The notes beneath the pieces are model-generated. The model saw only the letters and a list, made by a program, of their open reading frames with translations. It searched no databases and had not been told where the DNA came from. The translations under genes and the position numbers were made by a program. From assembly GCA_003278535.1 (NCBI GenBank), contig QCEG01000002.1, forward strand, positions 62,001 through 126,000: a DNA stretch of 64,000 nt. The letters run 5' to 3'. Source of the stretch: Prochlorococcus sp. AG-355-N18. GTDB taxonomy: Bacteria > Cyanobacteriota > Cyanobacteriia > PCC-6307 > Cyanobiaceae. Of this stretch, positions 16,846-62,714 are shown in pieces (within the stretch, counting starts at the first letter, position 1; every line of letters begins with the position of its first letter).

Positions 16846-17256
16846 CTAAGGATTATAGACTTTAGTTTTTAAATTTATCTATAAAAAAACAAAGGATCAT
16901 TAAAATCCTCTTACAAATTAAGAAAAAAGTAAATCAGCATATTTACGGATTTACTGAAAATATAAATAGGAGTAATTTATAGATGTTGAGTTCGGAGGCA
17001 ATCTAAATGATTGATAGTCCGCCTGAAATTTAGCAAATTCCAAAATATAGGAAGCGTATTCCTGAGAATGGGATTATTCGAAAATTAAAGTTCAATCAAT
17101 TAGTCTGATAAGACTTCGCTTTATAATTACTAGCGACAATAGGGACCTAAATTATCGAGAGAAATCCCCGAATTCACGTATTCTAGGTTTATGAGTAAAT
17201 AGACTTTAAAATATGTTATTTTATATCCTGTAAGAAGGAAATCAAATATTAAAAAA

Positions 17257-26507: not shown

Positions 26508-26554
26508 ATGCCCTCGTCGGGAATTGAACCCGAGACCTCTCCCTTACCAAGGGA
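26508..26554. repeat. attL: partial duplication of tRNA-Thr 3' part
   Basis: 47 bp, one mismatch to 45465-45511 inside the intact tRNA-Thr. Confidence 0.9.
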
Positions 26555-33619: not shown

Positions 33620-33774
33620 AATTATTTAAATAAAAACTACTTTTAAAGATTTTTTAAATATTTCTTAAATCCGACCTTCTTTTTTTAATGTTAGGTTACT
33701 TCTACGTTCATCCAATTTATTTGGACGCATGACATGAGAATAGGGAACGGGATTCTCATTAACTGCATAAGATC

Positions 33775-34571: not shown

Positions 34572-35108
34572 TTAATTATCTTTAAACGGAATTAAAATAC
34601 CTTTTTTTTCAAATTTGAGCCAACCTTTTTTTTCTAGTATTTTTAAATTTCTTGTTACGGTTACTCTTGTTGAAGAAATTGAATTACCGATAATTTTATG
34701 GGTAAAATTAAATTCTTTTAAATTTAGATAAAAATGTTTATCTTTTTTTAAGCCAATTATTGAGGATAAGTATAAAAGAAATTCTTTTAGTTTTTCTTCT
34801 GATTTTTTTATATCCCTTATTAATAAAAGTTTTTCCAATTGATCAATTCTTTTTAGACTTTTTGTTAATAAGTCTGTAGATGAAAAAAATAGCCCTCTTT
34901 TAATTGTTTTAATTTCGCAAGTTGTCAACGTAATTAATTTAATATTTTCGTAGTTACATAATTCCAAATATATTACAACATTTTTATTTATTATCCCAAC
35001 AATATTTTTCTTATTCTTGATTTTTGATTCCATTATTAATATTCCTGATTTGACTTCTAGAATTGTATTTTCTTTAAATTCTATATTTTGCTTTTCAGGA
35101 ATTATCAT
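34572..35108 (-). CDS. Crp/Fnr-family transcriptional regulator
   Basis: C-terminal winged HTH IGNSISSTRVTVTRNLKILEKKGWLKFEKKGILI; divergent from phn operon. Confidence 0.75.
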   Translation of the reverse strand: MIIPEKQNIEFKENTILEVKSGILIMESKIKNKKNIVGIINKNVVIYLELCNYENIKLITLTTCEIKTIKRGLFFSSTDLLTKSLKRIDQLEKLLLIRDIKKSEEKLKEFLLYLSSIIGLKKDKHFYLNLKEFNFTHKIIGNSISSTRVTVTRNLKILEKKGWLKFEKKGILIPFKDN

Positions 35109-35299
35109 ATTTATTTCTTAAATTCAATCACCCTAAATTTATAAAGTTAAAAATAAATTAAAAATTATTTAATTCCCTAATAAATCTGATTAAAAATTGA
35201 GTAACTCAAAATAAAACACTTAATCAGAATTTAAACTCTTTTTGCGAAAAAGTTAATCTCTTTAGAGCAAGTTAATAATGAAGAATAAATACAACACTA

Positions 35300-36298
35300 A
35301 TGAGAAATTTTTTAAAGATAGTCTTAGGGCTATCAATAATCAGTGCAAGTATTTCAAGTTGCGGAAATAAATCAAATGATTACATTGGAGATTTAGATCT
35401 ATCTGATTGCAATCCAAATAATACTGTTGACAGCAAATATTGTGATCGAGATGGAGATTTTCTTGCAGATTTACCCCTTTCCGAAGATGAATGGATAGAT
35501 CCTGAAACGATTGTGTTCTCATATACACCTGTTGAAGACCCATCCGTTTATGCAAAAGTTTGGGAAGATTTTGTAATTCATATGTCTAAGGTGACTGGCA
35601 AAAAAGTCACTTTCTTACCAGTTCAATCTTATGCTGCTCAAGTTGAGGCAATGAGATCAGGACGTCTCCATGTCGCAGGAATTAATACTGGAAGTAATAC
35701 TGTGGCAGCAGCATGTGCAGGAGCAGTTCCTTTTGGAATGATGGCTAAAAAAGATTTATCTTACGGCTATGAAATGGAAATCATCGTACCTTCTGATAGC
35801 CCAATTAATTCTCCTGCAGATTTAAAAGGTAAAAAAGTTACATTTACATCTAAGACATCTAATTCAGGATTTAAAGCACCATCGGCAATTCTTAAAGGAG
35901 AATTTGGTCTTGAGGCAAATAAAGATTTCACCCCAGTCTTTTCTGGCAAGCATCAAAATTCAATAATGGGTGTTGCAAACAAAGATTATGAAGTAGCACC
36001 AATTGCTAACTCAGTTCTTACAAGAATGGATGCAAGAGGTGTTGTTGATTCTTCTAAAATAAGAACTATTTATAAATCCCAAACCTTCCCAACGACAGGT
36101 TATGCTCATGCTCATAATCTACATCCAGCTGTAGTTGCAAAAGTAAAGCAAGCTTTTTACACCTATAACTGGGATAATTCAACATTAGATAAAGAATTTA
36201 AAAAGGCTGATAGATTCATTTCAATAAGTCACAAGCACGATTGGGATGTTATTAGAAAAATAGATAAGGCTAATGGTGTTGTTTATGATTGCAAATAA
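35300..36298 (+). CDS. phnD: Phosphonate/phosphite ABC transporter substrate-binding protein
   Basis: Lipobox SISSCGNK; PVQSYAAQVEAMRSGRLHVAGINTGSN, DLKGKKVTFTSKTSNSGFKAPSAIL. Confidence 0.92.
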   Translation: MRNFLKIVLGLSIISASISSCGNKSNDYIGDLDLSDCNPNNTVDSKYCDRDGDFLADLPLSEDEWIDPETIVFSYTPVEDPSVYAKVWEDFVIHMSKVTGKKVTFLPVQSYAAQVEAMRSGRLHVAGINTGSNTVAAACAGAVPFGMMAKKDLSYGYEMEIIVPSDSPINSPADLKGKKVTFTSKTSNSGFKAPSAILKGEFGLEANKDFTPVFSGKHQNSIMGVANKDYEVAPIANSVLTRMDARGVVDSSKIRTIYKSQTFPTTGYAHAHNLHPAVVAKVKQAFYTYNWDNSTLDKEFKKADRFISISHKHDWDVIRKIDKANGVVYDCK

Positions 36299-36329
36299 AA
36301 ATTTTTAATCATAAATAAAATCAGACTTA

Positions 36330-37097
36330 ATGCTTAAAACAATAAACCTCAAAAAGGTTTATCCAAATGGAGAAGAGGCGCTTAAAGGAATAAACCTAGA
36401 AATTCCTAATGGGCAAGTAGTTGCTCTTATCGGTCCTTCAGGTGCTGGTAAAAGTACTTTTATTAGAACAATAAATAGATTAGTTGAGCCCACTTCAGGG
36501 AAAGTTTATTTCGCTAATGAAAAAAATGACATTACTTCTTTAAATAAATCTAAATTAAGAAAAATAAGAAGACAAATTGGAATGATTTTCCAGGAATTTG
36601 CTTTGGTAGAAAGATTAAGTGTAATGGAAAATGTCCTTTCCGGCAGATTAGGTTACGTAGGATTTTGGAATAGTTTTTTCAGGAAATTTCCTCAAAAAGA
36701 TATTGAAGAAGCATTCCGTCTGCTTCAAAGAATTGGACTAGAGCATATGCTTGATAAAAGAGCCGATGAATTGTCAGGAGGGCAGAGGCAAAGAGTAGGA
36801 ATTGCTAGAGCTTTGATACAAAATCCAATGTTACTTTTAGTAGATGAACCTACCGCTAGTTTAGATCCCAAAAATTCCAGGCAAATTATGCGATTAATAT
36901 GCGAGTTATGTAATGAAAGAAATCTTGCTGCGATTATAAATATTCATGATGTTTTTCTTGCTCAGAATTTTGCAGAAAGAATAATAGGTTTAAAAGCTGG
37001 AGAAATTGTTTACGATGGCAAGTCAAGTGGCTTATCAGAGACAATACTTACAAAAATATATGGAGAAGAAGACTGGTCTAAAACTGTAGCAAATTAG
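36330..37097 (+). CDS. phnC: Phosphonate ABC transporter ATP-binding protein
   Basis: Walker [25 protein letters not shown], Walker [13 protein letters not shown]. Confidence 0.95.
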
Positions 37098-37108
37098 GAA
37101 TATATTAA

Positions 37109-37906
37109 ATGAATGATAAGAAAGTAATTTGGAAAAGAAAACCGTTAATAAAAAATAGGTTATTAAGAATTGGATTAATTTTGATAATTAGTACTTACTT
37201 ATTATCTGTTTTCCTAACTACCGAAATTGATTGGCAAAGAATTCTTGAAGGGATCCCAAGGGGTAAAAATTTTATATTTGCTTTTTTCCCTCCAGATTTT
37301 ATAACTAGATCTGATGAGATTTTGGCAGGTATTTTTGAAAGTCTATGGATGACTATTGTTGCAACTATTGTGGGGATACTTATTTCTATACCTGTATCCT
37401 TAGGGGCGGCTAAAAACATAGCTCCTAAATTTGTTTATTTCTTATCAAGAGGAGTTATCACATTGTCGAGGAGTTTTCAGGAAGTTATCCTAGCAATATT
37501 TTTTGTTAAGTTAATGGGTTTTGGACCTTTTGCTGGGATGGTAACTCTGAGTTTATCGACAATAGGGTTTTTCGCTAAATTATTATCTGAAGATATTGAA
37601 GACATAAATAAATCCCAAGCTGAAGCAATCAAATCTACTGGCAGCAGTTGGTTTCAATGGGTTAATTATGGTGTCCAGCCTCAAGTTATGCCAAGATTTA
37701 TTGGATTATCTTTATACAGATTGGATATTAATTTTAGAGAGTCAGCGGTAATTGGAATTGTTGGGGGAGGAGGTATTGGTTCTACCTTAAATACAGCTTT
37801 TGATAGATATGAATTTGAGACTGCAGCGGCTGTTCTTATCGTAATTATTTCTATCGTGATGATTGTTGAATATACATCTAGTCATCTCAGGAAATTAATA
37901 AAGTAA
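37109..37906 (+). CDS. phnE: Phosphonate ABC transporter permease
   Basis: PhnE-type permease EAIKSTGSSWFQWVNYGVQPQVMPRFIGLSLYRLDINFRESAVIGIVGGGGIG. Confidence 0.93.
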   Translation: MNDKKVIWKRKPLIKNRLLRIGLILIISTYLLSVFLTTEIDWQRILEGIPRGKNFIFAFFPPDFITRSDEILAGIFESLWMTIVATIVGILISIPVSLGAAKNIAPKFVYFLSRGVITLSRSFQEVILAIFFVKLMGFGPFAGMVTLSLSTIGFFAKLLSEDIEDINKSQAEAIKSTGSSWFQWVNYGVQPQVMPRFIGLSLYRLDINFRESAVIGIVGGGGIGSTLNTAFDRYEFETAAAVLIVIISIVMIVEYTSSHLRKLIK

Positions 37907-38721
37907 TGCCAATAATAAAACAAAAGGATTACAAAACCTGGAAAAAATTTGATCGAAAAAGAGATTTACAAAACTGGCTTTGTTGGTTCTTAGGTACTTT
38001 AATTTTTAGCTTTTGTTTCGGTCTAATTAGTAGTAAAACAATCTGGTTTTATGTTTTTGATTCACATAATGAGGCTTTAGATCTTTTAGGTAGGATGTTT
38101 CCTCCAGAAACTAATTATTTCTTCACTTTAATAAAACCTATTTGGGACACTTTAAATATCGCGACTATTGGTACAACGATTGGAACTTTAATTGCAATAC
38201 CATTAGCTTTTTTATCCGCAAACAATACTACCCCAAGTAAAAAGTTTTTAAGACCTTTAGCCTTATTTTGCATAGTTTCAAGCAGATCAATTAATTCAGT
38301 AATCTGGGCATTACTTCTGGTTGCAGTTGTCGGTCCGGGAGTCTTGGCTGGCATAATTGCTATCGGATTAAGATCGATTGGATTTTGTGGAAAATTACTT
38401 TATGAAGCTATAGAGGAAATTGATGAAAACCAAATTGAAGCTATTGAGGCAACAGGGGCAAATAAAGCACAAATTATGACCTTTGGCATAGTGCCTCAAA
38501 TTCTCCCAGCATTTACGAGTATTTCTATTTATAGGTGGGATATAAATATTAGAGAAGCAACTGTTGTTGGCTTAGTTGGAGCAGGAGGTATAGGGATAGA
38601 ATTAGATGCTCAAATAGGAGACTTAGCTTGGGCTAAGGTATCAGTTATTTTATTAACAATAGTAGTGGCAGTAGTTTTTAGTGAATGGATTACAGCAAAA
38701 ATAAGAAAGGCTATTATTTAG
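37906..38721 (+). CDS. phnE: Second phosphonate ABC transporter permease
   Basis: EAIEATGANKAQIMTFGIVPQILPAFTSISIYRWDINIREATVVGLVGAGGIG; overlaps the previous stop. Confidence 0.93.
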   Translation: MPIIKQKDYKTWKKFDRKRDLQNWLCWFLGTLIFSFCFGLISSKTIWFYVFDSHNEALDLLGRMFPPETNYFFTLIKPIWDTLNIATIGTTIGTLIAIPLAFLSANNTTPSKKFLRPLALFCIVSSRSINSVIWALLLVAVVGPGVLAGIIAIGLRSIGFCGKLLYEAIEEIDENQIEAIEATGANKAQIMTFGIVPQILPAFTSISIYRWDINIREATVVGLVGAGGIGIELDAQIGDLAWAKVSVILLTIVVAVVFSEWITAKIRKAII

Positions 38722-38766
38722 ACTAAATTAAATACTAGTATGAATAGTTAAGTAAAGATAAATTAA

Positions 38767-39777
38767 ATGCAATTTTCTGATAGATATCTAAGTGTTTGGG
38801 TTTTCTTAGCAATGTGTATTGGATCTTTATCCGGTTATTTATTTCCTAATTTATCTCAATTTATAGGCGGATTAGAACTCTCAAGAATTAATCTTCCAAT
38901 AGCAATTCTTATCTGGGGAATGATTTTCCCAATGATGTTATCAATAGATTTCAAGTCAATAATAAATTTGAAATATAAGATTAAAGGATTTTCTATTGTC
39001 CTTTTTATTAATTGGTTAATAAAACCAGTTTCAATGGCAATCATTGCAGCCTCTTTTTTATATTTTTTATATGGTAATTTGATAGATCCTGTACTTGCTA
39101 AAGAATATGTTTCTGGAATGATTCTATTAGGAATAGCGCCATGTACAGCAATGGTTTTTGTCTGGAGTAATCTTGCTAAAGGCGATCCTTTATTTACTTT
39201 AATACAAGTAGCTATTAATGATCTAATATTAATTTTAGCCTTTCCATTATTGTCAAAAATTCTTTTAGGATTTAACAGTATAGATATCCCGTTAGATACT
39301 GTTTTCGGTTCTGTAATAATCTTTATTTTGGTACCACTTTTTCTAGCAATATTTTTAAAAAATAAAATCTATAGCGAAAAAAGAATAAAAAGTATTTTGA
39401 ATAAAAGTAAAAGTTATTCGTTGTTTTTTTTAATTCTTACAGTCTTTTTATTATTCTTTGTTCAATCAAAATCTATATTACAAAATCCTATTCATATAAT
39501 CTTAATTTCAATTCCATTAATAATACAGACTCTTTTTATTTTTTATTTAACTGCTTTTTCAATGAAGTTTTTTAGGCAAAAGTATTCTATTTCCTGTCCA
39601 GGCTCGATGATAGCCGCTTCAAACTTTTTTGAACTTGCAGTAGCTGTATCGATAACTCTTTTTGGTATTAATTCAGGAGCTGCTTTGGCTACCATAGTTG
39701 GGGTACTAGTAGAAGTTCCTTTGATGCTTTATTTAGTAAATATTTCGAAGTTTTCCAAAATATTATTTATAAATTAA
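38767..39777 (+). CDS. ACR3-type arsenite efflux transporter
   Basis: Ten-TM protein, LLGIAPCTAMVFVWSNLAKGDPLFTLIQVAINDLIL motif. Confidence 0.9.
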   Translation: MQFSDRYLSVWVFLAMCIGSLSGYLFPNLSQFIGGLELSRINLPIAILIWGMIFPMMLSIDFKSIINLKYKIKGFSIVLFINWLIKPVSMAIIAASFLYFLYGNLIDPVLAKEYVSGMILLGIAPCTAMVFVWSNLAKGDPLFTLIQVAINDLILILAFPLLSKILLGFNSIDIPLDTVFGSVIIFILVPLFLAIFLKNKIYSEKRIKSILNKSKSYSLFFLILTVFLLFFVQSKSILQNPIHIILISIPLIIQTLFIFYLTAFSMKFFRQKYSISCPGSMIAASNFFELAVAVSITLFGINSGAALATIVGVLVEVPLMLYLVNISKFSKILFIN

Positions 39778-43963: not shown

Positions 43964-45325
43964 TCATAATGTAATCCTCTCTTTGTTATGTAGATCAAAG
44001 GCTCTTTCAACACTCATTTCATCTGTATAACTTGCGTAACTTCCATTGTGAACATCAACTGTGTGACCCATTGCCTCGGCTGCGTCTTTAATAGATATTG
44101 GATACCTAGAACCTGTATGACATTGATGGGCAAATCTATGCCTGAGACTATATGGAGTTATATCAGAATTAGTCTTTTCAATTTCTTTCCAAATTGGATG
44201 TTTTTTTAATTTTTTAGTAAATGCTTTGCCTACTTCGGCATAACTATTTTTGTCCTGTACTAAACTAATTTGTTTTAATACTGTTGCTGGTAGTTTTACT
44301 AATTCTGAATCTAATAAGCTAATTAATTTATTACCTAAATTAGGTTTATCAGTTAAGTCCATAGCAAATACTCTTCTTGAGTCTCTATCTTGGTTAGTCG
44401 TATTTAAATTATTTTTTATATGGCCTACATATAACTTCCCACCTCTGACTTCAAGTTCTGCAAGTTCAGATAGTCTTAAACCAAAAATTGATATTAATCC
44501 TGTAGCTAAAAACATCTCAGGGTCACTTGATTCAAGATCATCCAATAATCTCAATAAATCACTTTCTTTTACATAAGGAGTTAATGAGGATTTTTTAGAT
44601 TTTTTAGAAACGCCTTTTAATTCTTTTCTGTAGTCATCTTCTGGAGGTTGCCATCTTTTATCATTCATTGAATGTCTTTTGATGCCATAAGTTAATATGT
44701 CGCACCAAGTATCTAGATATCTTTTTTTCTGATCTGGGGTGATATTTTCCCCTAATTTTGCAGCACATAATTTTATTAATTCTGTACCTGTATTAGGTGC
44801 TGGCCTCTTATTCATTACCTCTAAAAATATTTGAATCCTTGTGAAGTATTTTTTCTCTGTTCCGCTTGAAAGTGGTCTTTTAGTAGCCAAAAATTGGTCA
44901 ACTTTTGTGGCCTTTAATTTTGCCTCATATTCTTTAAAAACCTTATCGTATTCTTTTTGTGGATAGAAATGTTTTGGTGGAACTATTAGAAAATCTTGCC
45001 ATGCTTTATTAGGTGCTGTTATATCATCCCCAATAAATTTAGACTTCCATCTTCTACCAGCATCACTAAGTGGAAGGTTTTCTTTAACTACTAAAGGTTT
45101 TATAAATTTAATTGCATTGAGGACATCTATACCAGAAGATTTCTTCCATTTAATAGGAAGTGTCACAGAGGTTCTTTTGTTGGCTTTACCAAGCCCTTCG
45201 TTGTAAACATATAGGATTTTAGTCTTGCCACTTGTCTCGCCATTTACAAGCCATCCTTGCCCAAAATTAGTGCGAACGGAATCTCTTAAGTCTGTTTCCC
45301 AAGAACCATTACTAATACTGGCCAT
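43964..45325 (-). CDS. Tyrosine recombinase (integrase)
   Basis: IFGLRLSELAELEV, TPYSLRHRFAHQCH, EAMGHTVDVHNGSYASY (R..HxxR..GH..Y). Confidence 0.93.
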   Translation of the reverse strand: MASISNGSWETDLRDSVRTNFGQGWLVNGETSGKTKILYVYNEGLGKANKRTSVTLPIKWKKSSGIDVLNAIKFIKPLVVKENLPLSDAGRRWKSKFIGDDITAPNKAWQDFLIVPPKHFYPQKEYDKVFKEYEAKLKATKVDQFLATKRPLSSGTEKKYFTRIQIFLEVMNKRPAPNTGTELIKLCAAKLGENITPDQKKRYLDTWCDILTYGIKRHSMNDKRWQPPEDDYRKELKGVSKKSKKSSLTPYVKESDLLRLLDDLESSDPEMFLATGLISIFGLRLSELAELEVRGGKLYVGHIKNNLNTTNQDRDSRRVFAMDLTDKPNLGNKLISLLDSELVKLPATVLKQISLVQDKNSYAEVGKAFTKKLKKHPIWKEIEKTNSDITPYSLRHRFAHQCHTGSRYPISIKDAAEAMGHTVDVHNGSYASYTDEMSVERAFDLHNKERITL

Positions 45326-45464: not shown

Positions 45465-45537
<73 letters not shown>

Positions 45538-45608
45538 AATTTTCAAGTGGGCCGGGTTGGACCAGATAAGATTACCAGCAGCACAGTAATTCTGAAGTGT
45601 GCAGAATA

Positions 45609-51893: not shown

Positions 51894-52766
51894 GTGAAGA
51901 TTCAAAAGCCATTGCTTGCCGGCAAATTTGATTCTGAGAAGGCTAAATTTCCCTATGCAGCAACACCAAAGATTGATGGTATAAGATTTCTGATGGTTGG
52001 GGGAGCTGCTTTAACAAGGTCTTTTAAACCAATTAGAAATGAATACTTACAAAAAATTCTTTCCTCTAATTTGCCTGAGGGTATAGATGGAGAACTGACT
52101 TCTGGATCAACTTTTCAAGAATGTAGTTCCATTATGCGTATTAAAGGTGAACCTGATTTTAAGGTTTGGATATTCGACTTTGTGAATCCTAAAGGGGAGG
52201 TCAAGCCATACAAAGAAAGAATGGATGAACTTCGTAAGTTTGAGAATTTTAATATTCCCTCTTATGAAATTCTTTTCCCAACAATAGTTTCAAATCAAGA
52301 ACAGATTGATCACTTAATGATTAATAATCTCAATGCAGGTTATGAGGGCTTAATGTTGAGAGATCCAAATGGGATATATAAATTTGGTAGAAGCTCAGTA
52401 AAGGAGAATATTCTATTAAAAGTTAAGGAATTTATGGATGATGAAGCCGAAATTATTTCCTTTAGAGAGAAAATGATTAATACAAATGAAGGCCTGAAAG
52501 ATAATTTTGGTAGAACTAAGAGATCAAGTTGTCAGGATGGATTAAAACCAAGCGGGACGTTGGGGGGACTTATTTTAAGAAATTCTGAAGGATTCGAGTT
52601 TAGTTGTGGAAGCGGATTAAACGATGCTCTTAGAGATGAAATATGGAAAAATAAGTCAAAATATCTTGGCAAGTTAGTTAAATATAAATTTATGTCAAAG
52701 GGTAGAAAAGATCTTCCCCGACATCCCGTTTTTATGGGATTTAGAGATGAAACTGATTTAAGTTAA
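51894..52766 (+). CDS. ATP-dependent DNA ligase (phage-like, single catalytic core)
   Basis: ATPKIDGIRFL active-site KxDG, EGIDGEL, GYEGLMLRDP, LLKVKEF; GTG start. Confidence 0.88.
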   Translation: MKIQKPLLAGKFDSEKAKFPYAATPKIDGIRFLMVGGAALTRSFKPIRNEYLQKILSSNLPEGIDGELTSGSTFQECSSIMRIKGEPDFKVWIFDFVNPKGEVKPYKERMDELRKFENFNIPSYEILFPTIVSNQEQIDHLMINNLNAGYEGLMLRDPNGIYKFGRSSVKENILLKVKEFMDDEAEIISFREKMINTNEGLKDNFGRTKRSSCQDGLKPSGTLGGLILRNSEGFEFSCGSGLNDALRDEIWKNKSKYLGKLVKYKFMSKGRKDLPRHPVFMGFRDETDLS

Positions 52767-52837: not shown

Positions 52838-54160
52838 ATGGAAAGTCAGGAACAAAATAATCACAATCTATCAAGAGGTTTTCTTGACAGTGCAATCCAA
52901 TTAAAAAAAGAGTGCAAATTTTCAGAAGCTATTGAGTTAATAAAAAAGGCTATTGAGTTAAATCCATATGAAAGCTTGAATTTTTTTAATATAGGACATT
53001 GCTTCCATTTACTGAAAAACTTTGATGAAGCAATGCACTACTACAAAATTGCGATTGATTTAGATCCAAGGGATTCTTCTTCATATAATAATCTTGGTTG
53101 CTGTTTAGAAGAAAAAGGTTTGTATCAAGAGGCAATTGCTAATTATTCAATTGCAATAAGACATAACCCTAAGAATTTTGATATTTATATGAATCGTGGG
53201 GATATGAGAATGAAAATTGGAGACTACTATGGAGCTATTTCAGATTATTCTATCTATCAACAAAACTTTGCGACTTCACCAAATGTTTACTTAAAAAGAG
53301 GCTTGGCTAATTTAAAAGCAAATTTCAAAGGCAAAGCATATAACGATTTAAAAATGGCCGATGCTCTTGGTAGTGAGAGTGCAATGAGAATAATATCAGA
53401 GCAAAATCTATCATCTTGGGCTAATTCCTCATCATCTAATATTTATCAAAGAGATAATTATGAATCTCTAAATGAATCAAGACCTTTTTATCAAAGAAAC
53501 AGCTATAGATCCTACCAGGAACCAAATTATAATTCTCAAAGAAATTATCATGAATCAATTAGATATCAAAACTACTCATATCATCCCAGATACTTTTCTT
53601 TGTCTGAATTATATAAAAATGCAATTAAAGATTCACCTCGTAACAATGAAATACCAAAATCTAATAATAATGAAATAAATCCTACTTCTCTTAAAGATAA
53701 ATATGTTGTTATTACTGGAACTATCCCTGGAATGACAAGAAAGGAAGTTGAGCTGCTGGTGCAAAAAGCTGGTGGAAATATAAAGGGATCAATTACAAGT
53801 GCAACAAATCTTTTGATTGTAGGAGAGGATGCTGGAAGTAAATTAAATAAGGCGAGGGAAAGATCTATTCAAATTATTGATATAGATGAGTTAAATTCAC
53901 TTATAGCAGTTAAGAGTACTCTTGAACTTTTGCATTTATGGAGTGAACTTGATGAAGAGGAAACATATCAAAAATTAAAAAAAGAATCTGTATCATTAGA
54001 AATTTTAAAATTATTAGTTAAATGTAATATCAGTAAAATCAGAAGAGCTGCCTTGTCAAACAAGAATATTACTCTCGATATTTTTTATAAATCTAGTGCT
54101 TTTTCAGATTCGACGAATAAATTATGTAAGTTTTTTCTCCAAAAATGGGGACAATTTTAA
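52838..54160 (+). CDS. TPR-repeat protein with BRCT domain
   Basis: Four TPR units at N-terminus; LKDKYVVITGTIPGMTRKEVELLVQKAGGNIKGSITSATNLLIVGEDAGSKLNKARERSIQIID BRCT. Confidence 0.88.
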   Translation: MESQEQNNHNLSRGFLDSAIQLKKECKFSEAIELIKKAIELNPYESLNFFNIGHCFHLLKNFDEAMHYYKIAIDLDPRDSSSYNNLGCCLEEKGLYQEAIANYSIAIRHNPKNFDIYMNRGDMRMKIGDYYGAISDYSIYQQNFATSPNVYLKRGLANLKANFKGKAYNDLKMADALGSESAMRIISEQNLSSWANSSSSNIYQRDNYESLNESRPFYQRNSYRSYQEPNYNSQRNYHESIRYQNYSYHPRYFSLSELYKNAIKDSPRNNEIPKSNNNEINPTSLKDKYVVITGTIPGMTRKEVELLVQKAGGNIKGSITSATNLLIVGEDAGSKLNKARERSIQIIDIDELNSLIAVKSTLELLHLWSELDEEETYQKLKKESVSLEILKLLVKCNISKIRRAALSNKNITLDIFYKSSAFSDSTNKLCKFFLQKWGQF

Positions 54161-54210
54161 GAATAAAATTTTATTTGGAATCACTTTTAAATAATGAGAA
54201 CTATATATAA

Positions 54211-54446
54211 ATACGCAGGTTGCTTCTAGCAAAAAAGGCCTCTGACGTTTCGTCGTGGTAGCAGTAAAGCTAGTCAATCATCATCGGCTGTCGATGTCTC
54301 TCAGCGTGTTATAGCACATATGCACCTATAACATTACGCTGAGACGACTGTAAACAGTCCGTTTGTTATAGGTGCATATGTGCTATAACACGCCTACAGT
54401 GATCAACACCGATTACAGTTAGATAGGTAGAAGTAACTTGCGTTAT
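54211..54446 (+). ncRNA. Retron msr-msd non-coding RNA
   Basis: 15-bp a1/a2 stem (54213-54227 / 54429-54443), AGC after a1 (branch G 54229), GACG-TTT-CGTC hairpin, TAGC..GCTA and CATCG..CGATG hairpins, 30-bp perfect msd stem, RT downstream. Confidence 0.85.
54304..54393. repeat. 30-bp perfect inverted repeat (msd stem) with 30-nt spacer
   Basis: GCGTGTTATAGCACATATGCACCTATAACA / TGTTATAGGTGCATATGTGCTATAACACGC. Confidence 0.97.
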
Positions 54447-54464
54447 ATTTAGAAAACGGAAGTA

Positions 54465-57245
54465 ATGAATCCTACACAATCTACAAAAATAGTTTTTGCG
54501 GCAAAATTTAAAGCTCAAAAGTTTGATATTTTTCTCCTTCAAAGAATTTATAAATCGGATTCAAAATTATTAATAAAAGTAAATTCTAGTTATTCTTCTT
54601 ATTGGGAGTCTTATAAAAAACCTCATCTGGCTTATTGGGGAAATATCAATAAAAAAAATGGATCAGAGCAAATTGATGAATTAATATCTAGTATTAAAAA
54701 TATTGAAAATAATAATAAGGTTTCAAAATTTCTTGAAAATATTTTAAATTCCTATCAACTTAATTCTCTAGAAAGTAATGGACTTAATCAGTCAATAAAA
54801 AATCTTTCTTCAGTAATTTCTGAAGCCCAATTAACAAATTTTGTAGATGGAATAAAATCACAAGATTCCGATTTGAAACTTACTTTATCTTCGGCGCAAA
54901 ATATATCTGAAAAAGTTCGTTTATCAAAGATATTAAAGTCTAATGACTTTAAACTTATTAAAATACTTTTAACAAAAGCTCCTTTAATTTTTGGCTATTG
55001 GGGACCATTTAAAACTGTTTTAAAGTATTTAGATCCTAAAATCTTGCCAAGAGAATTTGGGATTGCATTAGGGCGCCTATCTCTTGCAAAAGGTTGCAAT
55101 CCTGAAGCTGTAATTAATTACAACCTTTTTGCAGGGATTGTAGATATTGAAAATATTAATTGGCTTTCGGAAATTATTCCATGTCCTAGTGTTCTAACTC
55201 TAGATTATATGTTGAGGCGAATGCGTAGGGCGCTAATCAAAATAGGAGTGAAAGATTTAAAAACTTACTCAATAATTTCCGCGAACGCACTAATTAATTG
55301 GGATAAGGAAATCGATTCAAAATCGTTTATTCCTGGCTACATAATGGGAGGAAAAGTTTCTATTCTTGATAACAAAAGTAGATATGTAAAAGTTCCCTTA
55401 TTACAAAATAAATCTAACTATCCTTTCCCAGATGCTTGGAAAAATAATTTAGATGTAGTAAAAAAAATATTTAACTCAATAAGAAATTCTCCCGAAATTT
55501 TTACTTTTTGTTGCCAGGTATTTTTAGATCAAAAAGAGAATATTCCAACTTTAAATAAAAATAATATAATCTTAGCTCTCAAGAGTAAAGATCATAAAAT
55601 TGTAAATCTTGCTTCTAATTATATCGCAGATTTTCCAGATCTCTTTTCTAGTTTAAACGATTCTATGTGGCTTAATTTTTTCTCTTCTGAAAATATTGAT
55701 CCTATTAAAAAAGTAGTTAAAGAATTAATTTCTAGACCAATTTTAACTCAAAGTTATGTTGGAATAATTAATGGAATAAAAAAATTATTAGATAGCAAAT
55801 ATCATTCTCAAAATTTATCTTTAATTGGGCCAGTTTCTCTTCTTTATTTAAAATATAATTTTTCAAATCAATATTCAAACCTTTTAAGGCCTTCAATTAT
55901 TAATTCATTAGTTATTGAATCAATAACAGATTTTTATGATCTTGATAAACTTGATGATGAATATCTTTTGACAATTACAAAAATAAATATTTTTGATATT
56001 TTAGAAGCTTACTTAAATTTACTAGAAAAAGGAAATATATCCCTAGAAAGTTCCAAAATTCTAAGTGAAATAATATTCGAGCAAACAAAAAAGATACCTT
56101 TTAATGATCAAAAAATAAAACTTTCTTTTGAATGTTTTAAATATAAAAATATTGATGCTTTCAATTTTGGTTGGTTACTAATAGATGAAATTTCTAATTG
56201 GGAGGATGTTGAATATCTTTTATGGGATGAATTGCGGAAAAACATCTTCGTATCTTCTAAATGGAAAAAAGAAAGTTTGAAATTAATTCATCAATTTTTA
56301 AATAGAGCATCGAATTTAAATTCTTATTTTCTAGAACTTTTTACTGATAAATCTTGGAATTTTGTTATGAACTATAAAATATTTTTCGAAGAAGGAGAAG
56401 TTGATTTTAGAAATCTAGTTTGGAAAGCGTTAGGCCAAAATAATAATCAAAACATTGCCCAATATATTTTTAACGAAACAAATTTCATTAACCAAATTGG
56501 AAATATAGTTACGCAAGAGCATCTTGCTACAACAAATTCTGTTCAACAGGAAATGTTATTGAAATATATAAATCAGAAACCTGAAAGAATTAATACTGAT
56601 CATAATTTTGCAATTGGTTTACTAAGGATTCCTAATCGAAATCTTCAAGAATGCGCCCTAAACCAGATGAAAAAAGCAGATTTAATCGAAAAATATTGGA
56701 TTATAATTGCTGAAATTGGGTTGCCAATACCATTAGAAGCTATTCGTGAATTAATTAATTCGATAAATATAAAAAGAAAGTTCTCTGAGTATGTAATGGC
56801 CTGTTTAGATAGCATCGTTCCAGACGTTAGAGATATGGGTCTTACCTTTTTAAATAATCAATCAGAGAAAATTGATGATGAATTTTTGTGGCCTGCATTA
56901 ACTGAATCTGATGATCCAAAAGTTCAGTCAAAAGTTGTAGAAAGAACATTAATTAAAGATTGGAACGATACTGAGGAATTTGATTCATTTGATAGACGTT
57001 TACTTATAACCAGAAGAAAAAATCGAAGGGCTAAAGAACTGGTTAAATCAAGAATTACTCAAAATAAAAAATTAAAACAAGAAAAAATTATTTCCCCTTT
57101 TCGTAAAAAAGCTCTAATTGAACTTTCAAAAGGAACTAACTCCCAAGATAAAGCTTGGGCATTGCGTAATATTGCCATTCTTATGCTGAATGGTATTACG
57201 TTCGATGGAATACAAATTAAAACTGAAAATGGAGCTAAAAACTAA
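54465..57245 (+). CDS. Retron-associated 926-aa alpha-helical repeat (ARM/HEAT-like) protein
   Basis: First gene after msr-msd, overlapping stop/start with SWIM gene; helical repeat-like sequence. Confidence 0.65.
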   Translation: MNPTQSTKIVFAAKFKAQKFDIFLLQRIYKSDSKLLIKVNSSYSSYWESYKKPHLAYWGNINKKNGSEQIDELISSIKNIENNNKVSKFLENILNSYQLNSLESNGLNQSIKNLSSVISEAQLTNFVDGIKSQDSDLKLTLSSAQNISEKVRLSKILKSNDFKLIKILLTKAPLIFGYWGPFKTVLKYLDPKILPREFGIALGRLSLAKGCNPEAVINYNLFAGIVDIENINWLSEIIPCPSVLTLDYMLRRMRRALIKIGVKDLKTYSIISANALINWDKEIDSKSFIPGYIMGGKVSILDNKSRYVKVPLLQNKSNYPFPDAWKNNLDVVKKIFNSIRNSPEIFTFCCQVFLDQKENIPTLNKNNIILALKSKDHKIVNLASNYIADFPDLFSSLNDSMWLNFFSSENIDPIKKVVKELISRPILTQSYVGIINGIKKLLDSKYHSQNLSLIGPVSLLYLKYNFSNQYSNLLRPSIINSLVIESITDFYDLDKLDDEYLLTITKINIFDILEAYLNLLEKGNISLESSKILSEIIFEQTKKIPFNDQKIKLSFECFKYKNIDAFNFGWLLIDEISNWEDVEYLLWDELRKNIFVSSKWKKESLKLIHQFLNRASNLNSYFLELFTDKSWNFVMNYKIFFEEGEVDFRNLVWKALGQNNNQNIAQYIFNETNFINQIGNIVTQEHLATTNSVQQEMLLKYINQKPERINTDHNFAIGLLRIPNRNLQECALNQMKKADLIEKYWIIIAEIGLPIPLEAIRELINSINIKRKFSEYVMACLDSIVPDVRDMGLTFLNNQSEKIDDEFLWPALTESDDPKVQSKVVERTLIKDWNDTEEFDSFDRRLLITRRKNRRAKELVKSRITQNKKLKQEKIISPFRKKALIELSKGTNSQDKAWALRNIAILMLNGITFDGIQIKTENGAKN

Positions 57246-58888
57246 TGATTTCTTTCAAAGGCAACTTTACTCAATCAACTGTAAATTCAAATACTAATGA
57301 AAGTGCAGTTACTTTTGGTACTGATATTAAAAATTCAAATGTCTTCTTGAGTACAGATATAAAAGTTAAACCTGGTGTGGCATTCTCAAAATTAATGCTG
57401 GTATTAGGAAGAATAGTAAGGATGAGAGATGCTGGAGTAAATAAAGATCACTCAGCTTATCAGGAATGGGTTCAAGGCGAATACTTTAAAGAATTGCCTG
57501 GTTTTATGAGTTCACAATTAAAACAGCTTCCTAAATTAATAAAAGAAAGAGAAATACTTACGCAACAATTAGAATTTTATGATCAGATTATAAAAAAATT
57601 TAATTCAAATTATTTCCCCGAGCAAAGAAGGCGTTTTTGGAGTTGGCTTTATACACATAATAGAGATGCATGGTATGTTCTCGACCCAATAGTAAGTGTT
57701 CAGCCTGATGCGACATTTTTTGAGGCTTTTTCTCTAGATGAGTCAACTTATGCAAGAGTAGCTCTACCGCATGAGGCAACAACCGGTGAGAAAAACTTTA
57801 ATTGTGGAACTACAAATATTGACTTTAGTACTTCTCTTGAAAGAGAACTTTCTAGAACTCGTTCATATCGACCACTGCATTTAACCGTTGGCAAAGATGC
57901 CGTAGAGTTTGATACTGGAATATCAAATACAATAGAGAAAAAAATTGATCTACCAGAAACTTGGACTAAGGGTTTGGTTGAGGTTCAGGCTGCCTTATCA
58001 CTTGCACCTGTTGAAATTAAAATTTCATCATTAGCACTTGCCGATGTACTAGGAAGATTAGAGGCCCAGCGAGAAAAGGAAGGACCAAGATCACTAATTT
58101 TTGAACTTATTCCAGATGAAAAACCAAAAGTAATTGTTGAACCTTGGGGGGACGTTTTCATAATGTCTGATATGCCTTTTAAGGGGGCAAAAAGCTCTAG
58201 AATTAAAGTATGGGGAAGAAGAAGGTTGAGAGTATTAAAAGAGATACTTCCTTTGGTAAATAATGTGAATGTCAGATTAATCGATTCTGGAATGCCTTCA
58301 TTCTGGAGTGTAGAGATGGAAGGAATTCAATTAATAATAGGACTTTCTGGATGGACTAGTTTAGATTGGGCGGCTAGGGCGCGTTTTTCAGCGATGATAC
58401 CAGCTGCTGAAGAATCCAAAGAAACAATGGAAAAAGCTGCATATTTTTTAAAAACAAATTTAATCATTGAGGATGGAGAACTTGCCAAATATTTAAATAA
58501 ATCTCCAATGGAATCAAAAAGAATCCTTCAGCATTTATGTTTATCTGGAACGGCAATGTATGATCCTGAGTTTAGGAAATATCGTTATAGAGAACTTTTC
58601 CCTGATTTGGATTTCGAATCTAAATCTCAAACTGGTATTGAAGAAATTAAAGGCATTGAGTTATTCAAAAGAAATGCAGTCAGAATTTCATCAGATAGTA
58701 TTAATGAAAAAGAACGAACTATAAAAGCAACTGTTATTTCAAGAGAAAGGATCTGCTCTACTGTAATTAGTCGTGATATTGATAGTCGTATTACTCAAGC
58801 ACAGTGTAGTTGTTCATATTTTAGATATCACAAGCTTAAACAAGGTCCATGTAGACATATCGTTGCATTAAGTCTTGCTGGAGAATAA
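57245..58888 (+). CDS. Retron-associated SWIM zinc-finger protein
   Basis: C-terminal CSCSYFRYHKLKQGPCRH (CxCxnCxH SWIM) in 547-aa ORF. Confidence 0.85.
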   Translation: MISFKGNFTQSTVNSNTNESAVTFGTDIKNSNVFLSTDIKVKPGVAFSKLMLVLGRIVRMRDAGVNKDHSAYQEWVQGEYFKELPGFMSSQLKQLPKLIKEREILTQQLEFYDQIIKKFNSNYFPEQRRRFWSWLYTHNRDAWYVLDPIVSVQPDATFFEAFSLDESTYARVALPHEATTGEKNFNCGTTNIDFSTSLERELSRTRSYRPLHLTVGKDAVEFDTGISNTIEKKIDLPETWTKGLVEVQAALSLAPVEIKISSLALADVLGRLEAQREKEGPRSLIFELIPDEKPKVIVEPWGDVFIMSDMPFKGAKSSRIKVWGRRRLRVLKEILPLVNNVNVRLIDSGMPSFWSVEMEGIQLIIGLSGWTSLDWAARARFSAMIPAAEESKETMEKAAYFLKTNLIIEDGELAKYLNKSPMESKRILQHLCLSGTAMYDPEFRKYRYRELFPDLDFESKSQTGIEEIKGIELFKRNAVRISSDSINEKERTIKATVISRERICSTVISRDIDSRITQAQCSCSYFRYHKLKQGPCRHIVALSLAGE

Positions 58889-58889
58889 T

Positions 58890-60284
58890 ATGAAAAATCA
58901 AGATACTAGTCTTAATCCTGAGTGGGCGAGAAGAATTAAGCAGGTTGGTATGCGAGCTTTTGAAGTTGAAGAAATGCTTCGTCTTGGATTCCTTGAGCCT
59001 AATGACTTAAATATTGAAGAGTTTGAAAAAGCAGCTTTAAATTTAAAGGATATAAGAAATAAGTTAGAAAAAACTAATATAGAAATTGAGTCATTAAATA
59101 ATGTTGACATTGCGATTGATAAAATAAGATCTAAAAGAATTAAAGATGTAAAGATAAAAGCAGAACTTAGAAAAAATAATAAAGAAAAAGAAAAAACCAG
59201 AAGATTAGAAGAGAATAAAATTAATCGTATTAATTGCCCAAATTTTCTTGGAAGAGAAGTTTCCAATAGACTTAAATTTATTGGCGGAGACGAAGAATTA
59301 GTTAAAAGAAATGGGTTGCCAAAAATTATTTCTTTTCTTGATTTGTCTTCAGCTTTGGGATTAGATCCTAAAGATCTTCAATGGCTTGTTTATAGCAGAG
59401 AAGATTCTTCTATAGATCACTACACACGTTTTTATATTCCTAAAAGATCTGGAGAAAAAAGACTGATTTCTAGTCCAAAACCAATCCTTAGAAAAGCTCA
59501 AAGTTGGGTATTGAATGAAATTTTAGAAAAAATAAAATTACATCCAGCAGCTATGGCATTTAGGTCGGGAGTATCTATTCTAGATAATGCTTCATTGCAT
59601 GTGAAAAAAGAAATAGTTTTACGTATAGATCTTAAAGACTTCTTCCCTTCGATAGTATTTCCCCGAGTCCGCGGTTTTTATGAATCACTGGGATATAACC
59701 CTGGAGTTGCTTCAGTTTTGGCATTACTTTGCACAGACAGTCCAAGAGTACTTTTGAAGCAAGATGATAAATCATATTTTGTTGAAGTAGGCGAAAGATG
59801 TTTACCCCAGGGGGCATGTACTTCTCCAAATCTTGCAAATTTAATATCAAATAATCTTGATAAGAGAATTTCTGCTTATGCAGAAAAATCTAAATGGATT
59901 TATTCAAGATATGCTGATGATCTTATCTTTTCAACTAAAGAAAAAATTAAAAATCCAAATGGTTTGATTAACGGCATTTCTAAAATAATTTCAAATGAAG
60001 GATTTATAGTTAATCAAAAGAAAACACGCATAATGCGGAAGTCAAACAGGCAAATAGTTACTGGTTTATTAGTTAATGATGAAGTAAGGTTAACTAAAAG
60101 AGACTTACATCGTTTCAGAGCATTTTTTCATAATTGTAAAATTAATGGAATAGAAAAAGTTTCTAATGAAATCGGAAAAGATGCTATGTCAGTTGCAAAA
60201 GGTTATTTATCTTATGTAAATATAATTTCACCATCTACTGCAAATAAGTTTCTTAATTTAAATCCTTGGTTATCAATTAATTAA
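58890..60284 (+). CDS. Retron-type reverse transcriptase
   Basis: VLRIDLKDFFPSI, DNASLH (NAxxH), LPQGACTSPNLANL, YSRYADDLIFS, RQIVTGLLVND (VTG). ATG at 58890 preferred over TTG at 58875. Confidence 0.95.
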   Translation: MKNQDTSLNPEWARRIKQVGMRAFEVEEMLRLGFLEPNDLNIEEFEKAALNLKDIRNKLEKTNIEIESLNNVDIAIDKIRSKRIKDVKIKAELRKNNKEKEKTRRLEENKINRINCPNFLGREVSNRLKFIGGDEELVKRNGLPKIISFLDLSSALGLDPKDLQWLVYSREDSSIDHYTRFYIPKRSGEKRLISSPKPILRKAQSWVLNEILEKIKLHPAAMAFRSGVSILDNASLHVKKEIVLRIDLKDFFPSIVFPRVRGFYESLGYNPGVASVLALLCTDSPRVLLKQDDKSYFVEVGERCLPQGACTSPNLANLISNNLDKRISAYAEKSKWIYSRYADDLIFSTKEKIKNPNGLINGISKIISNEGFIVNQKKTRIMRKSNRQIVTGLLVNDEVRLTKRDLHRFRAFFHNCKINGIEKVSNEIGKDAMSVAKGYLSYVNIISPSTANKFLNLNPWLSIN

Positions 60285-61838: not shown

Positions 61839-62714
61839 CTATAAGGATAAATTTCTGAATCTTGTAAATTGAGGTTCAAAAAGTAATTTAACAGTACCAA
61901 CAGGGCCATTTCTATGTTTACAAATAATTAGTTCAGATATTCCTCTATCAGTAGTTTCTGGATTGTAGTATTCATCTCGGTAAAGCATTGCAATAAGATC
62001 TGAGGTGCCTTCAAGAGATTTAGTTTCTCTTATATCTCCCAACATTGGTCTTTTGTTGTATCTATATTCAATAGTTCTATTTAGCTGTGATGCTACAAAA
62101 ATTGGGACATCTAATTCAACCGCCATAGATTTTAACTTTATTCCAATTTTGCAAAGTTCATCATCTCTTGATGTTATTAATCTATTATCATCAAGTTCCA
62201 TTAATTGAATATAATCAATAACTATTAGTCCAAGTTTTTTATCTTTTGATTGTTCTTTAATCTCTTTACAAGTATTTGTCATTTCTTCAATTGAAATATT
62301 TTGTTTATCGAATATATAAATTGGCAATTGACTTAATGAGTTTATTCCTTCTCCTAGTAATGGCCATTCATCTTGTTGTAATCTTCCAGTTCTTAATCTA
62401 CCGCTTTCAATTCCTACTTCTAGAGATAATATTCTATAACCTAATTGTTCCTTGCTCATTTCTAATCCAAAGTAGCAAACTGGGAGACTCTGAGATTGGG
62501 CAACATTTTTAGCCATGTTAATCAATAAGGAAGTTTTACCCATAGAAGGTCTTGCACCTAAAACATTTAAGCTGCCTCTTTGAAGGCCTTGTGTCATAGC
62601 ATCAAAATCATAAAAGTTTACTGGTATTCCAGCTGTGCTTTCTCCCAATGATCTTTGTTCTATCTGATTAAATAATTTATTTAAAATCGAATCAAACTTA
62701 CTTTTTTTTTGCAT
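61839..62714 (-). CDS. DnaB C-terminal-domain helicase
   Basis: GARPSMGKTSLLINMA, FGLEMSKEQLGYR, LIVIDYIQLM, KRPMLGDIRETKSLEGTSDLIAMLYR; no N-terminal DnaB domain. Confidence 0.92.
   Translation of the reverse strand: MQKKSKFDSILNKLFNQIEQRSLGESTAGIPVNFYDFDAMTQGLQRGSLNVLGARPSMGKTSLLINMAKNVAQSQSLPVCYFGLEMSKEQLGYRILSLEVGIESGRLRTGRLQQDEWPLLGEGINSLSQLPIYIFDKQNISIEEMTNTCKEIKEQSKDKKLGLIVIDYIQLMELDDNRLITSRDDELCKIGIKLKSMAVELDVPIFVASQLNRTIEYRYNKRPMLGDIRETKSLEGTSDLIAMLYRDEYYNPETTDRGISELIICKHRNGPVGTVKLLFEPQFTRFRNLSL

Follow-up and report, generated by a model that had tools for sequence, protein, structure and literature searches.

Does a Prochlorococcus genome carry a complete retron and, if so, to which type does it belong, on what kind of DNA does it travel, and what would it do for its carrier? 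These questions are raised by positions 54168-60284 of a 64,000-nucleotide stretch of contig QCEG01000002.1 from Prochlorococcus sp. AG-355-N18, which we call the window; all coordinates follow its numbering, and positions past 64,000 lie on the same contig beyond the window end. Retrons are characterized, in the general terms of PMC12548924, as systems of a reverse transcriptase (RT), a noncoding RNA (ncRNA) and an effector that kill infected hosts, and streamlined marine microbes, Prochlorococcus among them, are generally credited with few intracellular defences (discussed in PMC12409356). A preliminary description, made from the letters of the window, had read the locus as a type XIII retron, a reading that is borne out by the RT and SWIM profiles, the RT phylogeny, the four-part linkage that relatives retain and the covariation of the ncRNA. 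The locus is a real, intact and rare type XIII retron, in a variant form and on a mobile tRNA island; the divergence of the variant, the tRNA-Thr integrative element with its empty sites, and the rarity go beyond that description. Elsewhere in the window, a Glutamine-II riboswitch (33702-33759) and a Yfr8 RNA (16985-17210) fit a Prochlorococcus-type genome.

Gene content and arrangement

Three genes follow the ncRNA on the forward strand: a HEAT/ARM-like accessory protein of 926 aa (54465..57245; PADLOC HEAT-ARM_XIII, 1.5e-9), an accessory protein of 547 aa with a winged helix and a SWIM zinc finger (57245..58888; PADLOC SWIM_XIII, 8e-152; PF04434), and a retron RT of 464 aa (58890..60284; PADLOC RT_XIII, 1e-140). 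The HEAT stop and the SWIM start overlap by one nucleotide in TAATG at 57243-57247, and the ATG of the RT at 58890 lies 1 nt past the SWIM stop. Given this overlap and the one-base gap, HEAT, SWIM and RT appear to form one translational unit, and the open reading frames and junctions agree with the overlapping or near-overlapping stops and starts already reported for the 926-aa, 547-aa and RT genes. No promoter better than chance was found upstream of the retron. The three reading frames are intact and under purifying selection, with dN/dS between the window and its relative G769 of about 0.33 for HEAT, 0.15 for SWIM and 0.16 for RT, and similar values between two further relatives, G117 and G321.

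Assignment of the RT to type XIII

Among the PADLOC profiles the RT matches RT_XIII with 468 bits, compared with 297 for the next model, and retron RTs dominate its matches in PADLOC, NCBIfam and the PDB, where the nearest solved relative is the Ec86 RT (1.7e-40). The expected NAxxH (N233, A234, H237), YADD (Y341-D344) and VTG (V390-G392) motifs are all present, and an alignment of 10 type XIII RTs shows no variation in them. A PADLOC run, which had been proposed as a check on the locus, returned 468 bits for RT_XIII, 504 bits for SWIM_XIII and a weak 35 bits for HEAT-ARM_XIII. A phylogeny of 35 RTs (six picocyanobacterial, 20 other type XIII and nine others from the same searches) places the six picocyanobacterial sequences on one branch (support 100/99), neighbouring freshwater type XIII RTs; this branch joins the other type XIII sequences at 100/100, apart from the nine others. 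Placement within the retron clade, likewise a proposed check, is with type XIII; because few RTs of other retron types are in the tree, the profiles carry most of the weight in assigning the type. A related RT from a Flavobacteriales MAG (L003, 33% identity) forms a long branch outside type XIII.

SWIM and HEAT accessory proteins

The SWIM protein is well captured by its PADLOC profile (SWIM_XIII, 504 bits), and the SWIM finger noted earlier at its C-terminal end is recognized by PF04434 (6e-7). Its predicted model, with a mean pLDDT of 54, contains a winged helix (wHTH) at residues 392-448; the predicted winged helix together with the zinc finger makes a nucleic-acid target likely. When this model was compared with the PDB using Foldseek, all 50 of the 50 matches listed were sliding or checkpoint clamps (best E 1.9e-6, probability 1.00), and among the named top matches to viral models almost all were clamps as well; both searches use the one poor model, and TM-scores were below 0.5. 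The SWIM core of type XIII retrons may thus, tentatively and on model evidence, be sliding-clamp-like (PCNA/DnaN), in which case the effector could mimic a clamp and, once released by the retron, poison or bind replication forks, a possibility that we consider rather doubtful. At the sequence level the relation to clamps is unsupported, as a profile comparison of SWIM with 18 DnaN proteins gave no similarity.

The HEAT protein gives a local match of 35 bits (1.5e-9) to HEAT-ARM_XIII, and its counterparts in relatives give 26-46 bits. It occupies the place in the operon expected of a type XIII HEAT/ARM or WGR-HEAT protein. Its model (pLDDT 68 for the whole protein and less at the N-terminus) shows four strands and a helix at the N-terminus followed by an all-helical solenoid, which supports the helical-repeat character proposed for the 926-aa protein; a fold search with it retrieved generic HEAT solenoids only. 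Profile-profile comparison with WGR-HEAT proteins was unconvincing (probability 7%), and a WGR domain is not detectable in the picocyanobacterial protein by sequence, although the predicted N-terminal strands and helix could be a degenerate WGR. The Pfam family DUF7194 fell below its cut-off and was dropped, and a comparison of HEAT with DUF6493 found no profile similarity. Sequence searches found no solved relative of either the SWIM or the HEAT protein.

Structure and conservation of the ncRNA

The structured RNA reported ahead of the genes stands, with a fold of -106 kcal/mol and z = -9.25 (0 of 200 shuffled sequences as stable); the start at 54168 does not, since the ncRNA (msr-msd) proper spans 54214..54442 on the forward strand, as delimited by its fold, by the covariance model and by compensatory substitution among relatives. 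The a1 arm (CGCAGGTTGCTTCTA, 54214..54228) pairs with its 15-nt partner a2 (54428..54442) in 15 of 15 positions, two of them G-U, and this helix 1 covaries. Directly 3' of a1, in a UAGC context within TCTAGCAA, which is invariant in five picocyanobacterial relatives, lies the predicted branching guanosine (54229), a role that we infer from retron anatomy. Two covariance-model helices follow, msr stem-loop 1 (54239..54258) and msr stem-loop 2 (54259..54272); the GTTTCG (GUUUCG in the RNA) of the former is invariant in picocyanobacterial relatives, and the ncRNA of L070 has a similar motif. The msd consists of a hairpin whose 5' arm (54304..54332) and 3' arm (54365..54393) are perfect 29-bp complements that covary, with an extended base stem beneath.

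This fold is conserved in relatives through compensatory change. Both sides have changed in 30 of 74 pairs, which none of 500 shuffles reached, and in 18 of the 24 pairs of the msd long stem; 88% of cells in the alignment are paired, as against 31-43% after sliding by one to three columns. In the upper msd stem, complementarity is kept though the sequence has been rewritten between lineages. Interrupted or perfect dyads occur in the msd arms of the window, G769 and L035 (p 0.004-0.02 each) and are absent from G117 and G321; dyad symmetry, suggestive in three of the five ncRNAs, was accordingly rejected as a general msd feature. No Rfam family matches the ncRNA, and the microRNA matches returned were long-stem look-alikes below the gathering score.

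The tRNA-Thr integrative element

In five relatives (G387, G353, G202, G383, G017) the left and right flanks are joined directly at tRNA-Thr, so that about 52.7 kb have been inserted here. The insertion begins at a 47-bp 3' remnant of tRNA-Thr(GGT) (26508..26554) and comprises two tandem units, of which the right one (about 33.7 kb) bears the retron. A full tRNA-Thr(GGT) copy on the reverse strand (45465..45538) forms the left border of this unit, within a 96-bp repeat (45466-45561) identical to 79267-79362 in the native tRNA-Thr/tRNA-Tyr pair (79266-79430, beyond the window end). Each unit has its own recombinase: a tyrosine recombinase on the reverse strand in the left unit (43964..45325; PHROG integrase, 4.7e-8) and a PF00589 recombinase in the right unit beside the native tRNA-Thr (78161-79153, beyond the window end; 6.9e-23). 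The copy at 45465 also includes the 3' end of tRNA-Tyr (45539-45561), which would fit recombination of the right unit at tRNA-Tyr or its arrival with a tRNA-Thr of its own.

Around the retron, the element encodes a DNA ligase-like protein (51894..52766, forward) and, directly upstream of the ncRNA, a TPR-BRCT protein (52838..54160, forward), both of which are also linked to the retron in G769, as well as a DnaB-like helicase (61839..62714, reverse) and a sigma-region-4 protein. The left unit carries nutrient-type cargo at 34572-39777, namely a phosphonate-type ABC transporter (PF12974, 3.5e-60), a Crp-like regulator and an SBF-family permease. Beyond the window end (L039), the retron-bearing unit encodes two large TPR-CHAT proteins at 65143-68304 and 71414-74740 (CHAT 5e-70 and 7e-58) and has a Zn-peptidase-like gene, possibly further defence or protease cargo.

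The unit combines a tRNA-adjacent tyrosine recombinase with directly repeated tRNA sequence and an empty site in relatives, and on this comparative evidence of mobility the retron is cargo of a tycheposon-like tRNA-Thr integrative unit. The copy in G117 sits between tRNA-Pro 3' remnants; with tRNA-Thr here and tRNA-Pro there, the islands that carry the retron are anchored in different ways. In G117, the 45 kb at 1045000-1090000 (L065, L036, L067) contain about eleven partial copies of tRNA-Pro and form a heavily accreted island around that retron.

Distribution among relatives

Of the 266 genomes of the genus, five have an RT_XIII match; a sample of 400 genomes from the family added one more. 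Within the genus the RT and the ncRNA coincide completely, both being confined to G000, G117, G321, G769 and G862. The covariance model was built from five ncRNAs and four of the five matched genus genomes supplied it; the informative outcomes of the scan are the match in G862 and the lack of any match in the other ~260 genomes. Linkage of the three genes with the ncRNA, whose absence from relatives had been named as a refutation, is kept in the order ncRNA-HEAT-SWIM-RT in G010, G117, G321 and G769, with 34-85% protein identity (34-77% for HEAT). All three frames are intact in the window, G117, G321 and G010, and in G769 up to the point within the RT gene where its contig stops; contig ends interrupt the G862 copy, probably an effect of assembly.

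An orphan retron-type ncRNA occurs in G116, a genome of a neighbouring genus that is ~89% complete (G116:C9:17700-17933; L131:7700-7933). It scores 90.6 bits against model R1, lies outside the building set of that model, and is accompanied by no gene for HEAT, SWIM or RT in the 20 kb read; it may be a relic or a stand-alone RNA. Scans of IMG/VR with the SWIM protein and the ncRNA motif, and tblastn of phage records, returned no viral relatives.

Proposed function and alternatives

The reading that we consider highly probable is that of a complete type XIII retron in its picocyanobacterial variant, carried as cargo by a tRNA-Thr element, in which a SWIM/HEAT pair held by msDNA would be freed on infection and lead to abortive infection. 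By analogy with established retrons, the RT would copy the msd of the ncRNA that heads the operon into DNA, priming from the 2'-OH of the guanosine directly after a1 (about G54229), and the product would be branched msDNA carrying a 29-bp hairpin. The RT, the msDNA, HEAT and the winged-helix/SWIM protein would assemble into a single complex that keeps the SWIM/HEAT pair inactive. Infection would interfere with the msDNA or with the complex and free the pair, which may then act on nucleic acid or replication and stop the cell, protecting kin and the element; SWIM, HEAT or both are candidate effectors. The analogy covers msDNA synthesis, the priming site, the complex, the trigger, toxicity and phage defence.

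A true retron might instead serve mainly the mobile element, through superinfection exclusion or competition with other elements or satellites at the tRNA hotspot, and not host anti-phage immunity. The setting in a tRNA-Thr integrative unit, the G117 relative between tRNA-Pro remnants and the frequency of tRNA-Thr remnants in the genus are consistent with this alternative, which we regard as possible though well short of probable; to our knowledge of the literature, the retrons tested so far act against phages, and the interests of host and element overlap so far as to be inseparable by sequence. Less plausible still is a non-defence role in which msDNA and a DNA-binding SWIM/HEAT pair regulate gene expression or the replication of the element: the predicted winged helix, the msd-arm dyads of the window, G769 and L035 (not shared by G117 or G321) and the element's own DnaB-like helicase and sigma-region-4 protein would suit it, but a patchy occurrence in 5 of 266 genomes fits defence cargo better, and PADLOC counts the family among defence systems.

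That the retron is decayed and inactive seems very improbable. Decay may well happen in the group, as the orphan ncRNA of G116 suggests, and the G862 copy is interrupted, if probably by assembly; against this stand the intact frames of the window and its relatives, their low dN/dS and the compensatory changes in the ncRNA. An RT of another class (DRT/Abi, DGR or group II intron) would share the common RT fold, and TIGR04416 (56 bits) and Drt2 (36 bits) do match, far below their cut-offs; with retron RTs dominating all profile and PDB matches, both NAxxH and VTG in place and an msr-msd fold upstream, we give this explanation almost no credence.

An intact retron under selection on a mobile tRNA island is a concrete, portable defence candidate, and it offers a starting point for asking how defence passes between streamlined cells. 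The picocyanobacterial variant, a compact three-gene cassette of 6.1 kb, also provides a second, divergent reference for the poorly characterized type XIII, through its msd covariation and ncRNA-first operon. Our literature search found no experiment on any picocyanobacterial retron and no open-access paper on the mechanism of type XIII.

Comparison with known systems

The retron type itself is known; the locus is a variant of type XIII in which the ncRNA heads the operon and the partner proteins have diverged strongly. Canonical type XIII loci of freshwater cyanobacteria (L040, L041, L043) and of a Methylobacterium bullatum plasmid (L070) resemble it in their RT_XIII and SWIM_XIII proteins, in having a large protein of HEAT type, for which the variant gives a weak profile match, and in an msr-msd-like ncRNA of ~240 nt, in which a G-rich-stem msr hairpin comes directly after UAGCAA or UUGCAA and a long, extended base stem underlies the msd hairpin. 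They differ in their order (WGR-HEAT, SWIM, ncRNA directly after SWIM, other ORFs in some, RT), whereas in the variant the ncRNA comes first and the genes abut, and in their big protein, which scores 836-1268 bits against WGR_XIII where the picocyanobacterial HEAT protein reaches 35 bits to HEAT-ARM_XIII and has no sequence-level WGR. Neither ncRNA model finds the loci of the other, the freshwater model R2 missing the window, so that anatomy, and not score, is the ground for regarding the two ncRNA classes as homologous. The ncRNA lies upstream of HEAT in 5 of 5 picocyanobacterial loci, whereas the canonical loci compared have it between SWIM and RT, and other RT_XIII loci directly before or after RT; because its position varies among these as well, it marks the variant and does not define type XIII. 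Many freshwater cyanobacterial RT_XIII genes (L042, L044, L046-L049, L052-L059) have no detectable SWIM or WGR-HEAT within several kb, and their partners may be elsewhere or different.

With the experimentally studied Ec86/Eco1 and its kin, the locus shares an RT homologous over the catalytic part and an msr-msd RNA closed by a1/a2, but its accessory proteins differ and its RT has an N-terminal extension of ~130 aa. Stand-alone plasmid pairs of a SWIM zinc-finger protein and DUF6493 (L080, L081) have a SWIM protein 21-23% identical beside one or two large proteins and, unlike the picocyanobacterial retron, no RT or ncRNA annotated alongside. The element resembles the tycheposons and tRNA-targeting elements of Prochlorococcus, as PMC10872708 describes them second-hand, in its tRNA-flanked cargo, tyrosine recombinase, partial tRNA repeats and empty sites; by that description their published cargo consists mainly of nutrient genes, whereas the cargo of the window includes a retron.
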